Below, one piece after another: positions 11,991 through 23,314 of a stretch of DNA of 35,267 nucleotides. Within the stretch, counting starts at the first letter, position 1, and every line of letters starts with the position of its first letter. This stretch comes from a virus. Location of the stretch: IMG/VR virus record IMGVR_UViG_3300023094_000027, positions 1-35,267 of that record; one strand, 5' to 3'. The notes under the pieces are model-generated. The model was not told the DNA's origin, made no database searches, and was given only the letters and a program-made list of their open reading frames with translations. A program made the position numbers and the translations under genes.

Positions 11991-12159
11991 GAAAACATCG
12001 AACAAACTAAACGCTGCAAAGGGTGGCCGTGCTTACTCTAAGCTCACCATCGAGGATAAGCGGTATATCAAGAGTAGTAAGATGGGCGTAACCGAACTAG
12101 CTACAAAGTTCAATGTGTCTCGATCAGCTATCTACAATGTCAAAAATCAAAACGTGTAA
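11983..12159 (+). CDS. Stand-alone helix-turn-helix protein (58 aa)
   Basis: Residues about 18-54 run KLTIEDKRYIKSS, then VTELATKFNVSRSAIYNVKN, a clear helix-turn-helix. This closely matches the C-terminal HTH of the HNH protein at 32022-32468 (KLTEEDVK, then PEIATQYGVSRSAISGIKN). It overlaps the HNH gene that follows, so the two may act together, or they may derive from one fused homing-endonuclease-type protein. It is a candidate for the regulator that binds the promoter element, but nothing shows that directly. Confidence 0.65.
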   Translation: MDKKTSNKLNAAKGGRAYSKLTIEDKRYIKSSKMGVTELATKFNVSRSAIYNVKNQNV

Positions 12160-12469
12160 GATATGCGGTAGCCCTTGGCATTACCAAACCTTCTGCCCTC
12201 TTAAACGTAAGAATCCTATCCCTAAGAAAGGTAAACAGGCTTTACTTTGGGTTGATGTGAGTACAGCCTGGATAGAGAAACACGGCTCTAACCATCTATG
12301 TTATATTTGCGGCGTCCTACTAGATGAAACTACCCTAACTCTAGACCACGTAATACCTAAATCTAATGCCAAGAACTACAGTAATAGGCATGATGATAAC
12401 AATCTAAAGCCCTGTTGCTGGTCATGTAATTCAGAAAAAGGTAGTAAACATATTGACAGTGCAAACTAA
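12137..12469 (+). CDS. HNH endonuclease
   Basis: A 110-aa protein with a zinc-type cysteine pair at the N-terminus (CKICGSPW), a second (CYICG) and the HNH core LTLDHVIPKS, then NNLKPCCWSCNSEKGSK. The D-H pair and the later N and C-x2-C fit the HNH fold, so it should cut DNA with a metal cofactor. Small HNH proteins in this position are seen in phages either as homing nucleases or as helpers of packaging or recombination; the N-terminal CxxC resembles NinG-like proteins. The ATG at 12137 lies inside the end of the HTH gene. Confidence 0.8.
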   Translation: MSKIKTCKICGSPWHYQTFCPLKRKNPIPKKGKQALLWVDVSTAWIEKHGSNHLCYICGVLLDETTLTLDHVIPKSNAKNYSNRHDDNNLKPCCWSCNSEKGSKHIDSAN

Positions 12470-12481: not shown

Positions 12482-12511
12482 GTAGCTAGTAATCACGAAA
12501 GGAATACTACA

Positions 12512-12682
12512 ATGTCAAGTAAGCAAACAAAAACAGAAGCTCCTAAAAAGAGCAAGAACTTATCAAAAGTAATGGCTATAATCGGTTGGGCAATCATTAC
12601 CCTAGCCGTAACGTTTGGCGCTGGCATGTATACACAACATACCTTGGCTCAGCCAATACAAGTTGTACAGCCGGGAAAATAG
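12512..12682 (+). CDS. Frame-0 product: signal/anchor peptide (56 aa)
   Basis: A lysine-rich start (SSKQTKTEAPKKSKNLSK), one hydrophobic span (about residues 20-42, VMAIIGWAIITLAVTFGAGM) and a possible signal peptidase site at TLA-Q near residue 47. It stops at TAG 12680-12682, directly after the heptamer GGGAAAA (12673-12679) read as G GGA AAA. Normal translation yields only this short membrane or secreted peptide. The -1 product is listed separately. Confidence 0.7.
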   Translation: MSSKQTKTEAPKKSKNLSKVMAIIGWAIITLAVTFGAGMYTQHTLAQPIQVVQPGK

Positions 12683-13053
12683 AAAGCCTGAAGACTGACC
12701 AGGCTATGCCGGTGAATACGATATCCTCAACAGAGGTGACCAAAAACATTACCCCTGTTAATATAGTGCCGGTTGATTGTACATTAACGAACAAGTACGA
12801 CTGGCCGAAAGACATAGCCTATGCAACATGCATGGCCGAATCTAAGGGCAATATAAACGCTGTAGGCGATGTAAACACAAAATATGTATCATGTGGCCTT
12901 ATGCAAATTAGAACGCTTCCTGGCCGCCCTACATGCGAAGAATTGAAGAACCCAGAGTTCAATATGGAATACGCCTATAGGCTATACAAAGCACACGGCT
13001 TTCAACCTTGGTCGGCGTTCAAAAATAAAAGCTATCTAGAATATATGAGATAA
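12512..13053 (+). CDS. Secreted or anchored lytic transglycosylase made by -1 frameshifting (180 aa)
   Basis: Frame 0 gives the signal/anchor peptide; a -1 slip at GGGAAAA (12673-12679) continues at ATA (12679-12681) for 124 more residues. A perfect 6-bp stem (AGCCTG 12685-12690 with CAGGCT 12700-12705, 9-base loop) begins 5 bases after the heptamer, the classic stimulator arrangement. The downstream part is a small lysozyme-like transglycosylase: WPKDIAYATCMAESKGNINA holds the catalytic-type E-S, followed by SCGLMQIR and the FQPWSAF end, the E-S, G-L-M/F-Q-I, W-S-x-(F/Y) signature of such domains. It should cleave peptidoglycan outside the membrane. Alternatives are internal initiation at ATG 12706 (no signal peptide, poor ribosome site) or a one-base sequencing error. 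Confidence 0.7.
12673..12705 (+). promoter_or_regulatory. Programmed -1 frameshift signal (slippery site and stem-loop)
   Basis: Heptamer GGGAAAA at 12673-12679 in the X XXY YYZ register of the frame-0 gene, the frame-0 TAG right after it, a 5-base spacer, then a perfect 6-bp stem with a 9-base loop (12685-12705). The -1 frame is open from here to 13053. Confidence 0.75.
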
Positions 13054-13620: not shown

Positions 13621-13809
13621 TCACTGTTTGTTTTTTGGCGCGAAGTATACCGTCAAGAAACCTATCAATGCAACTAATGTACCGTCGATGATTACAGATA
13701 ACGCACCATTAACTTCATCACTTACTGTTACACCTTGTTTAGCTAAGAACCCTACAAGTAGTGCCGCTAGTGCACCTGCTATTGCTTTACTGACTGTTTT
13801 AAGATCCAT
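13621..13809 (-). CDS. Holin
   Basis: A 62-aa protein with two hydrophobic spans (about residues 7-24, VSKAIAGALAALLVGFLAK; and 38-56, VIIDGTLVALIGFLTVYFA) and a short basic end, the shape of a class II holin with both ends on the same side. It lies directly downstream of the amidase gene in the leftward late block, the usual lysis arrangement. It should permeabilise the inner membrane to let the endolysin out. Confidence 0.75.
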   Translation of the reverse strand: MDLKTVSKAIAGALAALLVGFLAKQGVTVSDEVNGALSVIIDGTLVALIGFLTVYFAPKNKQ

Positions 13810-13817
13810 AATAACTC

Positions 13818-14510
13818 CTATTTTACTGTATAATTACCTGGTTTAAGCACAATCGAATCATTAGGTTGTGCTACCCCTATAGCCGCCCACTCAGGGCTAC
13901 CCCAGATGCTACGCGCGAGTTGCTCGACAGTCATTCCTGCTGAACCGTTAATCTCTCCCGTGCTTGCATCACGGCGGAGGCCGATGTTGTACATCAGCGC
14001 CACCGTAGTCGCATCTACTATTGCTTGACTTGAATTTGGCATAGTATCTCCTATAAAATTATTAGCTTCTTGATCTATACGGGTCAGACTTAACGTACCA
14101 GGACACGCGGTATTCCAGTACTTACTATGAGGGACTAGTGGTAAGTTACCATAAGTCTTTCGTATGTTTGCAACAAGCTCACCTATAGTTTTATAATCCC
14201 CATCAGTTCCGTAAGGTGAACACTCAATCTTTATACCGAAAGGGTTTCCGTTTTGGGTAGTTAGGGCGCAGTTTTTTTCTGGTACCATCAGTGTAACTCG
14301 TCCTGCTGAAGCTACATAATTGACACTACCACCTTTTTTATTCTTCGTGTAACTGACTACTCCATCATGGGTAGGCTTCTTGGATGGATCATCCCACCAA
14401 TGTATTTGAATTTCTTGGAATATATATGGTTTCTTGTAATAGGCTAGACACTCTGCTGGAGTGAACCATGAGGTTCTATGTAACTGGGGCACGTTGTCTA
14501 GTTTATACAT
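13818..14510 (-). CDS. Endolysin: N-acetylmuramoyl-L-alanine amidase
   Basis: A 230-aa protein. The N-terminal 150 residues are an Amidase_2/PGRP-type zinc amidase: IQIHWWDDP gives the first zinc ligand (His37), and LVPHSKYWNTACPG gives the second His (128) and the Cys (136). NPFGIKIECSPYG corresponds to the central strand with an acidic residue. It cuts the bond between muramic acid and the stem peptide. Residues 155-230 form a separate C-terminal module (MYNIGLRRDASTGEINGSAG, then WGSPEW), perhaps a wall-binding domain. Next to the holin, it is the main lysis enzyme. No signal peptide is seen, so it depends on the holin. Confidence 0.88.
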   Translation of the reverse strand: MYKLDNVPQLHRTSWFTPAECLAYYKKPYIFQEIQIHWWDDPSKKPTHDGVVSYTKNKKGGSVNYVASAGRVTLMVPEKNCALTTQNGNPFGIKIECSPYGTDGDYKTIGELVANIRKTYGNLPLVPHSKYWNTACPGTLSLTRIDQEANNFIGDTMPNSSQAIVDATTVALMYNIGLRRDASTGEINGSAGMTVEQLARSIWGSPEWAAIGVAQPNDSIVLKPGNYTVK

Positions 14511-20852: not shown

Positions 20853-22601
20853 TTACGCGTAAGCTTGTTTAGGTACTAATCCGTTGCTGACAGTTTCCTG
20901 GTTGAGTGTGAGTCTTCGTATGATTGCGTCTTCTCTTGCTTGGCTGTCTACTACTATCGTACCTATGTTGTTTTCTATGTGTGAACCACCGGAACGCTCC
21001 GTGCTGTCTACAAGTGCATCATTAGGGGTAATCATACCGCTGCTCTTTGGGCTAAAGAACTCTGGGCCTTCTTCACCTACGATGTAACCTTTGCCAGCAC
21101 TGACAGGGCCACCTTTTGCTCTAAAACCGAATGAATTTTTAAGCTGCTGTACCATGCTTAGCCCCCCACTCGCACTTCCACCAGTATTACCGATAGGAAC
21201 TTTCTTTTTCTCTGCGTCCGACCATGCTTCACTCAGCTTATTAACTGTCTTTATAACCGCTTCTATCTCTGCTATAACGAGAGCTGTACCGAGAATAAAC
21301 ATTGACAAGTATATAGGGGTGGTCAGGGCTAGCATAGCAAGTCGCAAAGTCCCAAGAACTCCCGTAGTAGTCGCAGCTGTTGCACTTACTAAGGCGAATG
21401 AAGCTACAATAGCTTGGACCGCTGCACCTATCGCAAGCGAAACTTTCAGAGCTACAAAAGCAGCAGTTAAGGTATAAATTATCCACGTATGATCCGCTAG
21501 GTAATTTAGAACTGGCGTTGCTACTGCCAGTAAAGCATTAAGTGCGTCAATCGCTAGGCCAAACGCCCACACTAAACCCGTACCAACAGTTGGCCCTATA
21601 GCTTTCGCAAGACCAAGTGCAGCAGGTAAAAAGTCGTCTCTTAACGTAGTTATTAAAACTTGTATTTTCGGGAGTAAATAATTGCCTATTTGCACGGCAA
21701 TTTGCCCTATATTTTGTATCATCATCACCCCGAAAGAAGTTAACTGCGGTATAAATAATCTGAGTTCAGCAGACACAACCTTGAGTGCGGCTGGTAATTT
21801 ATCCATTAAACCAACTATAAGATCACCTAAACCGCCTTTTATAAACTTGCTGGTATCTGCATCAACCCCAAGTATCGCGTCACCGATTGATCGAAATGCG
21901 CTCTCTATCCTAATTCCTAACCCTCGAATAGTTGTAGCCTGACCCTGAAGCGCATCAACTGGTATACCTTTATCGAGAGTTTTGAATAGGTCACTTGCGC
22001 TTATATTCGTGTTACGGAGGCTCTTATCTAACTTGAATCCGTATTGCGTAAGCTGATCGAACTCAATACCGCTTAAACGACCTGTGGACACCACACGGCC
22101 TACTACAGCATTAAGATCTTGCCAATTTCCTAAACCCAAACCTACAGACCTAGATAAGATCTGGACGTTAGCACTTAGGTCTTTTGTTTCTACACCGTTT
22201 AACTTGAGCATCTGTGCTGATTGGAATAGATCACGACGGTTGAATAGCACACCCATGTCTGAACGTGCATATTTAATAAGATCTGAGAGTACCGCGTTAA
22301 CAGCATCACCGTTCTTCTCGTAAGCCTTCAGACCTACCGTAGCTTGCTCAACAGCACCGACTTGCTCCCAAGATGCAGTAGTTGCCTTAACTGCGCCAGC
22401 AGCAAGCGCTGTGAGGCCTACAATAGCGGCACCAATACCAACCTTTGCGGCCCTAGACCATGCTTGACTAGTACGCTCGGCCGACCCCTCTGACTTATCG
22501 GCTACACCTTCAGCGATTGCTTCTGCTTCACGCGCATCGCCTCTCATCTTTGAGGTGTCTATCCTAGCGTCGTAGCGTATCGAGCCTTCGTTACTATCCA
22601 T
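20853..22601 (-). CDS. Tail tape measure protein (582 aa)
   Basis: A long helical protein after the chaperone genes. The first 50 residues are a charged coiled coil (SKMRGDAREAEAIAEGVAD), then a hydrophobic TM-like stretch (AAIVGLTALAAGAVKA), a central helical region with two large hydrophobic zones (about 335-460), and a C-terminal FRAKGGPVSAGKGYIVGEEG motif with an MITPNDA end, typical of tape measures. At 0.15 nm per residue it predicts a tail of about 85-90 nm. It sets tail length and is probably injected with the DNA. Confidence 0.9.
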   Translation of the reverse strand: MDSNEGSIRYDARIDTSKMRGDAREAEAIAEGVADKSEGSAERTSQAWSRAAKVGIGAAIVGLTALAAGAVKATTASWEQVGAVEQATVGLKAYEKNGDAVNAVLSDLIKYARSDMGVLFNRRDLFQSAQMLKLNGVETKDLSANVQILSRSVGLGLGNWQDLNAVVGRVVSTGRLSGIEFDQLTQYGFKLDKSLRNTNISASDLFKTLDKGIPVDALQGQATTIRGLGIRIESAFRSIGDAILGVDADTSKFIKGGLGDLIVGLMDKLPAALKVVSAELRLFIPQLTSFGVMMIQNIGQIAVQIGNYLLPKIQVLITTLRDDFLPAALGLAKAIGPTVGTGLVWAFGLAIDALNALLAVATPVLNYLADHTWIIYTLTAAFVALKVSLAIGAAVQAIVASFALVSATAATTTGVLGTLRLAMLALTTPIYLSMFILGTALVIAEIEAVIKTVNKLSEAWSDAEKKKVPIGNTGGSASGGLSMVQQLKNSFGFRAKGGPVSAGKGYIVGEEGPEFFSPKSSGMITPNDALVDSTERSGGSHIENNIGTIVVDSQAREDAIIRRLTLNQETVSNGLVPKQAYA

Positions 22602-22602
22602 G

Positions 22603-22971
22603 CTATAGTTCTGCTTTCATTTGTTTAACCAAATTCTTTGTTAAGTCTTTGAATGATTTACTAGGCTTCTTACTATTGGCCGCTAGTGATCCTATGAACG
22701 CGGCATGAGCCATATCGTATGTGTTCTGTGCGTCTATCTTTCGCGCCCCCATAATGAGATTTACCATCGTATCAGCCGTAATACTGTTATGTATTAATAC
22801 TGCTTCTACAGCAGCCCATCCGAAATGTTTGCCAAACTCTGCTATTAGTAAAGTCTCTTCATCTACGTTAGTTGCGCTTCCTTCACGTAAAGCTTTAGCT
22901 CTAACAGCTTTGGCATGATCTTCGGGGCTAACCTTGAGATAGGTTTTCTTTTTCGGTTGCGTCTGTTGCAT
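22603..22971 (-). CDS. Tail assembly chaperone, second part (T-like)
   Basis: A 122-aa helical protein overlapping the end of the first chaperone by 44 bases in the +1 (or -2) frame. The segment LIAEFGKHFGWAAVEAVL and ADTMVNLIMGARKIDA match the second-part pattern of G/GT-type chaperones. Possible expression: frameshifting near the A-rich tract ACC GAA AAA GAA AAC in the overlap, or independent start at ATG 22971 (an in-frame TTG is at 22974). Together with the first part it keeps the tape measure soluble during tail assembly. Confidence 0.65.
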   Translation of the reverse strand: MQQTQPKKKTYLKVSPEDHAKAVRAKALREGSATNVDEETLLIAEFGKHFGWAAVEAVLIHNSITADTMVNLIMGARKIDAQNTYDMAHAAFIGSLAANSKKPSKSFKDLTKNLVKQMKAEL

Positions 22972-23314
22972 CAAGTTTAGCCTCTGCTTGCTTAGTGATG
23001 TCTTCTAGTATTACTTTAACCATGCCAAACGGTGTATCATCTAACCATGCTTTTACTTGTGAGTTATCTTCTGTTTCATCCTGGAAAAAACCTAGATATA
23101 CCGTATACATTTTCTTTTCAAGCTCATCAAGCTTATCAAGGTCAGCATCCGAAGCAGTACCGGATTCAATCCGTTTTTCAAGGTGCTTCATACGCCTATC
23201 AATCTGGCTTAGAGCTAGCTCATCCCTAGCACCCGGTAGTCTTATCCGCCAGTTTTTGCCGTTGAATAAGACTACCTTTTCTGCTCTGTACTTGTCCGCA
23301 CCGATATCTATCAT
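22928..23314 (-). CDS. Tail assembly chaperone, first part (G-like)
   Basis: A 128-aa protein between major tail and tape measure genes, the usual place for G-type chaperones. The N-terminal half is beta-rich (KVVLFNGKNWRIRLPGARDE), the C-terminal half helical (DLDKLDELEKKMYTVY). It overlaps the second part by 44 bases in a different frame. Confidence 0.7.
   Translation of the reverse strand: MIDIGADKYRAEKVVLFNGKNWRIRLPGARDELALSQIDRRMKHLEKRIESGTASDADLDKLDELEKKMYTVYLGFFQDETEDNSQVKAWLDDTPFGMVKVILEDITKQAEAKLDATDATEKENLSQG

Follow-up and report, generated by a model that had tools for sequence, protein, structure and literature searches.

SAR endolysins, such as Lyz of phage P1, combine an N-terminal membrane anchor with an exported catalytic domain and are translated from one continuous frame. 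Among dsDNA phages, the known cases of programmed frameshifting are chiefly those of the tail-assembly chaperones (PMC5009743, PMC10885494), with lambda gpG/gpGT and the other chaperone shifts being of the -1 type (PMC5009743) and lambda making two products with a common N-terminus in a fixed ratio. The transposase of insertion sequence IS1222 is frameshifted at a Z_ZZN tetramer, A_AAG (PMC5009743). The gene described here lies in a viral record of 35,267 bases (IMGVR_UViG_3300023094_000027; hereafter the window, meaning the whole stretch analysed) and has likenesses to each of these systems. Like a SAR endolysin it appears to specify a phage muralytic enzyme with an N-terminal anchor, here predicted from sequence, but in split frames rather than one; like lambda gpG/gpGT it would yield two products sharing an N-terminus from a -1 shift in a dsDNA phage; and like IS1222 it uses a lysine-codon tetramer as the minimal slip site, although the IS1222 product is a transposase fusion and neither a membrane protein nor a wall enzyme. 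In contrast to the tail chaperones, the predicted product is an exported cell-wall enzyme from the early region, not adjoining the tape measure gene, and most of its relatives use A_AAA and a pseudoknot. In the literature searched, which covered papers outside subscription, no report joined frameshifting with a phage transglycosylase, wall enzyme or anchored endolysin.

The favoured reading, given a probability of about 0.93, is that a programmed -1 ribosomal frameshift cassette would add an exported, tethered transglycosylase to a fraction of anchor peptides. The features of the window gene are as follows.

12497-12503, + strand: ribosome-binding-like sequence GAAAGGA upstream of ATG 12512, read directly
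12512-12682, + strand: 0-frame ORF of 56 aa, closed by TAG; the peptide has a single transmembrane segment behind a cationic N-terminus
12569-12625, + strand: predicted transmembrane segment, residues 20-38, from hydropathy
12673-12679, + strand: slippery heptamer G_GGA_AAA, its A_AAA part conserved in 18/18 split genes
12680-12682, + strand: 0-frame stop TAG immediately 3′ of the heptamer, read directly
12685-12705, + strand: stem-loop AGCCTG/CAGGCT, 6 bp with a 9-nt loop, 5 nt past the heptamer
12685-12690 and 12700-12705, + strand: stem arms of the hairpin, AGCCTG and CAGGCT respectively
12679-13053, + strand: -1 frame coding part, 124 codons, comprising a linker and an SLT_3 transglycosylase domain
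12778-13050, + strand: SLT domain, with Cys codons at 12778 and 12829 and a putative catalytic Glu codon at 12838-12840

The local elements named in the original prediction can be read in the sequence. The 56-codon 0 frame does end at TAG 12680, closing with ...CCG GGA AAA TAG, the heptamer GGGAAAA stands in the register proposed for it (G_GGA_AAA), the 6-bp stem follows 5 bases further on, and the lysozyme-like domain attributed to the 124 -1 codons, which stop at 13051-13053, is borne out by an SLT_3 match above the Pfam cut-off. The lambda slip site is G_GGA_AAG, one base apart from that of the window. The heptamer alone is not rare, with two copies of GGGAAAA on the two strands of the window against 3.5 expected, and it is the position that is the notable feature. 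As putative stimulator the window has a hairpin of modest size, 6 bp; the 31-nt fold comes to -8.6 kcal/mol (z = -3.1; 2/200 shuffles equally good). Codon usage speaks for frame 0 as far as about 12660 and beyond that point for the -1 frame. Taken by itself the window gene could still reflect a one-base error, and conservation is the decisive test of its split.

Homologues were gathered with one SLT alignment followed by two refined alignments, and relatives of the window SLT gene surfaced only through such alignment-based searches. Exact-peptide searches of viral contigs with the window SLT domain, HNH and amidase proteins returned no relatives, and no homologue of the split gene was present in the closest terminase relatives (G001-G006). 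The split was found in 16 further distinct IMG/VR genes (contigs L118, L119 = L120, L121, L122, L132, L133, L135, L136, L139, L141, L147, L150 = L151 = L154, L152, L153, L168 and L172) and in the TM7 phage DolZOral124_53_65 (MG269973), giving 18 with the window. In the 16 contigs an upstream ORF of 54-98 aa with one transmembrane segment overlaps an SLT open frame that has no adequate start and is always -1 relative to it, no +1 arrangement being seen in this SLT clade. The TM7 phage (L207:5648-6294) likewise has the membrane ORF in frame 0 and the SLT domain in the -1 frame, and in its record the annotation of gene CQ476_31, an 86-aa 'lysozyme-like domain protein', covers only the 0-frame part, most of the SLT-coding part being left unannotated. 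The proposal of -1 frameshifting is thus supported by 17 further distinct genes, all with a -1 offset and a slip motif and nearly all with a predicted RNA structure beyond the motif.

Related genomes had also been named as the place where a continuous frame would count against frameshifting. As a rule no such frame is found, 17 relatives keeping the split, and the continuous genes are those of L123 and L163, in which membrane anchor and SLT domain are encoded in one frame and which sit among the split genes in the SLT domain tree with modest support. Since L123 and L163 carry the same layout in one frame, the predicted anchor-SLT fusion is evidently the functional product. Outside the clade one-frame anchor-SLT proteins are usual (L155, L157, L164, L165, L174). 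A more distant SLT homologue in L162 (1687-2195) has a -1 split of its own, in which a strong hairpin stands about 7 nt beyond the slip site T_TTT_TTA, and groups with the single-frame anchor-SLT proteins in the domain tree; its frameshift probably represents a second, independent origin.

The encoded protein is consistent with a membrane-anchored wall enzyme. The window 0-frame peptide has a hydropathy of 2.03 over residues 20-38 with a net charge of +5 ahead, and nearly all members share one transmembrane segment (hydropathy 1.8-2.9) and a cationic N-terminus. In the relatives the cationic N-terminus leads into a single transmembrane helix followed by polar residues, so the enzyme probably stays attached to the membrane and is not released. 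A signal peptide on a secreted enzyme had been proposed, of which the membrane segment stands, with the N-terminus being a probable signal anchor rather than a cleaved signal peptide. The domain scores 38.2 bits against SLT_3 (PF18896), above the curated cut-off of 27, and 19.4 bits against SLT (PF01464), just below the cut-off of 21.3. All 12 aligned members retain one Glu, in an ES motif, and two Cys, the cysteines suggesting an exported domain. No sequence match to any solved structure was found, and the AlphaFold2 model of the domain is of middling confidence (mean pLDDT 70). Its structural matches are led by MltE, at Z 7.2 the highest score and about 27% identical over 75 residues, followed by lysozymes (Foldseek E > 0.1 throughout); they are consistent with the SLT profile and by themselves are not proof. 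MltE/EmtA-type lytic transglycosylases have a lysozyme-like fold and share with the window domain the Glu in an ES motif; MltE itself is a lipoprotein encoded in a single frame.

Within the overlap of the two frames an in-frame NNA_AAA is present in 18/18 split genes, while this dicodon accounts for 45/5501 codons (0.8%) in the genes of the window. The overlap is often just 13-34 nt, and in L152 and L153 (13 nt) and in L118, L136 and L172 (22 nt) it is short enough to place the proposed shift at NNA_AAA. Full heptamers are found in the window (GGGAAAA), in L122 and L133 (AAAAAAA) and in L147 and L153 (TTTAAAA), the remaining split genes having the A_AAA tetramer only, and the longest run at any slip motif of the relatives is seven bases. 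The Z_ZZN tetramer is a minimal slip site (PMC5009743), which the A_AAA tetramers fit, with A_AAA lacking the full heptamer being a weak slip site alone. Conservation of heptamer and stem had been put forward as a check on frameshifting; the perfect heptamer varies between relatives, whereas A_AAA and a downstream pseudoknot or hairpin are kept.

An H-type pseudoknot can form after A_AAA in 11 genes (L118, L119, L121, L132, L135, L136, L139, L147, L152, L153, L168), with a spacer of 4-7 nt (mostly 6), stems 1 and 2 each of 5-7 bp and a loop 3 of 10-14 nt. That of L118 and L136 pairs CAGTAG/CTACTG with CCGTC/GACGG, and that of L139 pairs GAGAAG/CTTCTC with ACTGT/ACAGT. Among 2892 AAAA positions on both strands, pseudoknots of such score occur at the 11 slip sites and 3 others (Fisher p ~4e-24), a count inflated by shared ancestry as the genes are related. 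Eight of the 11 sets of arms are distinct and most differ in sequence, with compensatory changes at 11/11 core pairs, in which the type of pair varies and pairing is kept; 0/20000 re-dealt arm sets paired equally well, a figure to which the same inflation by common descent applies. A hairpin-only reading of the relatives was dropped, several of the hairpins lying 14-16 nt from A_AAA; in these cases the far hairpin turned out to be stem 2 of a pseudoknot, stem 1 of which begins 6 nt from the motif. No pseudoknot was found in the window, L122, L133, L141 or L172, all of which have hairpins instead, and L150 has an imperfect pseudoknot only, identified by eye. The hairpin of the TM7 phage is 10 bp, 13 nt past the last A_AAA, and its exact slip site is less clear. 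The loop of the window hairpin, GACTGACC, is common to L141 and L172, and on this resemblance the hairpin looks homologous to the inner stem of those two.

Three alternatives to programmed frameshifting were weighed. The one that survives best, itself improbable, is that two genes are present, in which the peptide terminates and the SLT protein is made by reinitiation as a cytoplasmic endolysin. Termination-reinitiation is common in phages, and the -1 frame of the window has an ATG at 12706, 26 nt past the stop and lacking a good ribosome-binding site. This ATG could make a small reinitiation contribution in the window. Reinitiation is not the common mechanism, because five genes (L121, L132, L136, L139, L168) have no ATG, GTG or TTG ahead of the domain in the -1 frame. 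It accounts for neither A_AAA in 18/18 genes nor pseudoknots at a fixed spacing, the in-frame relatives carry the anchor, and the invariant cysteines point to an exported domain.

Less probable still, at a very small chance, is the loss of one base from the G3A4 run by assembly or sequencing error, the gene being really continuous. Homopolymer runs are error-prone, and the genes of L123 and L163 as well as an unrelated SLT gene of G002 are continuous, but 17 other distinct genes, drawn from many metagenomes and from one published complete phage genome, have a -1 split as well, at slip motifs with runs of seven bases at most and with pseudoknots conserved downstream. A single-base error could not turn up again and again in unconnected metagenomes, and for the family this explanation is ruled out. 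Least credible is transcriptional slippage, by which a base added or dropped in the A run would let a subset of mRNAs encode the fusion, as suggested by the A7 runs of L122 and L133, for most members have AAAA only, which is too short for slippage by bacterial RNA polymerase, and such slippage has no need of pseudoknots.

Under programmed -1 frameshifting, most ribosomes would terminate at TAG 12680, having made a 56-aa peptide that spans the membrane once. In a minority, aided by the stem-loop that starts 5 nt past G_GGA_AAA, tRNA-Lys, and here also tRNA-Gly, would slip back by one base on this heptamer and re-pair, with translation going on in the -1 frame. The fusion of about 180 aa would comprise a cytoplasmic cationic N-terminus, a transmembrane anchor and, joined to it by a flexible linker, an exported SLT-type peptidoglycan transglycosylase domain, so that a tethered wall-cutting enzyme would be made at a set ratio to its own anchor and in the smaller amount. 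We infer the slippage event, its efficiency, the membrane topology and the enzymatic activity. The purpose may be to restrain a toxic enzyme, or the anchor peptides may act as partners or inhibitors, and the enzyme itself may act in lysis, in remodelling the wall locally or in keeping out other phages.

An HNH gene (12113-12469) precedes the split gene, which closes the early cluster of the + strand and converges on late genes including a small membrane protein and an amidase (13621-14510, - strand). The separate late amidase argues that the putative frameshifted transglycosylase is not the sole lysis enzyme. In L119, L135 and L139, too, the split gene has a zinc-finger/HNH-type gene directly before it, an order that recalls the lambda nin region ahead of the lysis genes. 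The close terminase relative G002 encodes a single-frame signal-peptide-plus-SLT protein (PF01464; L005:10514-11026, - strand) at a comparable position, the end of the early region, and this protein gave no alignment with the window SLT domain. A tail assembly chaperone G/GT was rejected as an identity for the split gene, which lies in the + strand early cluster and not just upstream of the tape measure gene, the tape-measure-like gene (20853-22601) being on the opposite strand. The window has a probable tail-chaperone pair adjoining the tape measure gene (22928-23314 and 22603-22974, both - strand), whose reading frames overlap with an offset of +1 (or -2), the second ORF having an ATG at 22971, and the G002 pair (1279-1653 and 1622-1981) has the same offset; frameshifting of the +1/-2 kind or independent initiation of the second ORF could account for it.

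The window's terminase has counterparts of 68-69% identity in the records of L120 and L139. Since most other carriers do not have a terminase of this type, the split-gene cassette is, as judged from sequence comparison, one that moves between phage lineages. In the L139 record the terminase large subunit frame (G016:C1:3781-5172), located by genome search, has one in-frame TAA. Host prediction for the window through one bacterial genome scan gave distant terminases only. The host on record for DolZOral124_53_65 is candidate division TM7, and by analogy with this relative Saccharibacteria may be the host of the window phage.

These findings place probable, conserved frameshifting, with classical H-type pseudoknots, in a gene quite different from the tail chaperones, that of a predicted exported cell-wall enzyme. 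At least one carrier infects the ultra-small Saccharibacteria, whose phages have hardly been studied, and gene callers split or miss such genes, as the TM7 phage exemplifies. The 18 compact bacterial-type shift signals are a resource for ribosome work. They also raise the question of why a phage should keep a wall-cutting enzyme on an anchor in constant proportion to the anchor peptide alone. One tentative answer, more doubtful than not, is that in Saccharibacteria phages a frameshift cassette evolved more than once to dose an early tethered enzyme, with the anchor-only product acting as a functional partner or inhibitor that times or places wall cutting. If true, this would amount to two-product control of lysis or exclusion from one gene.
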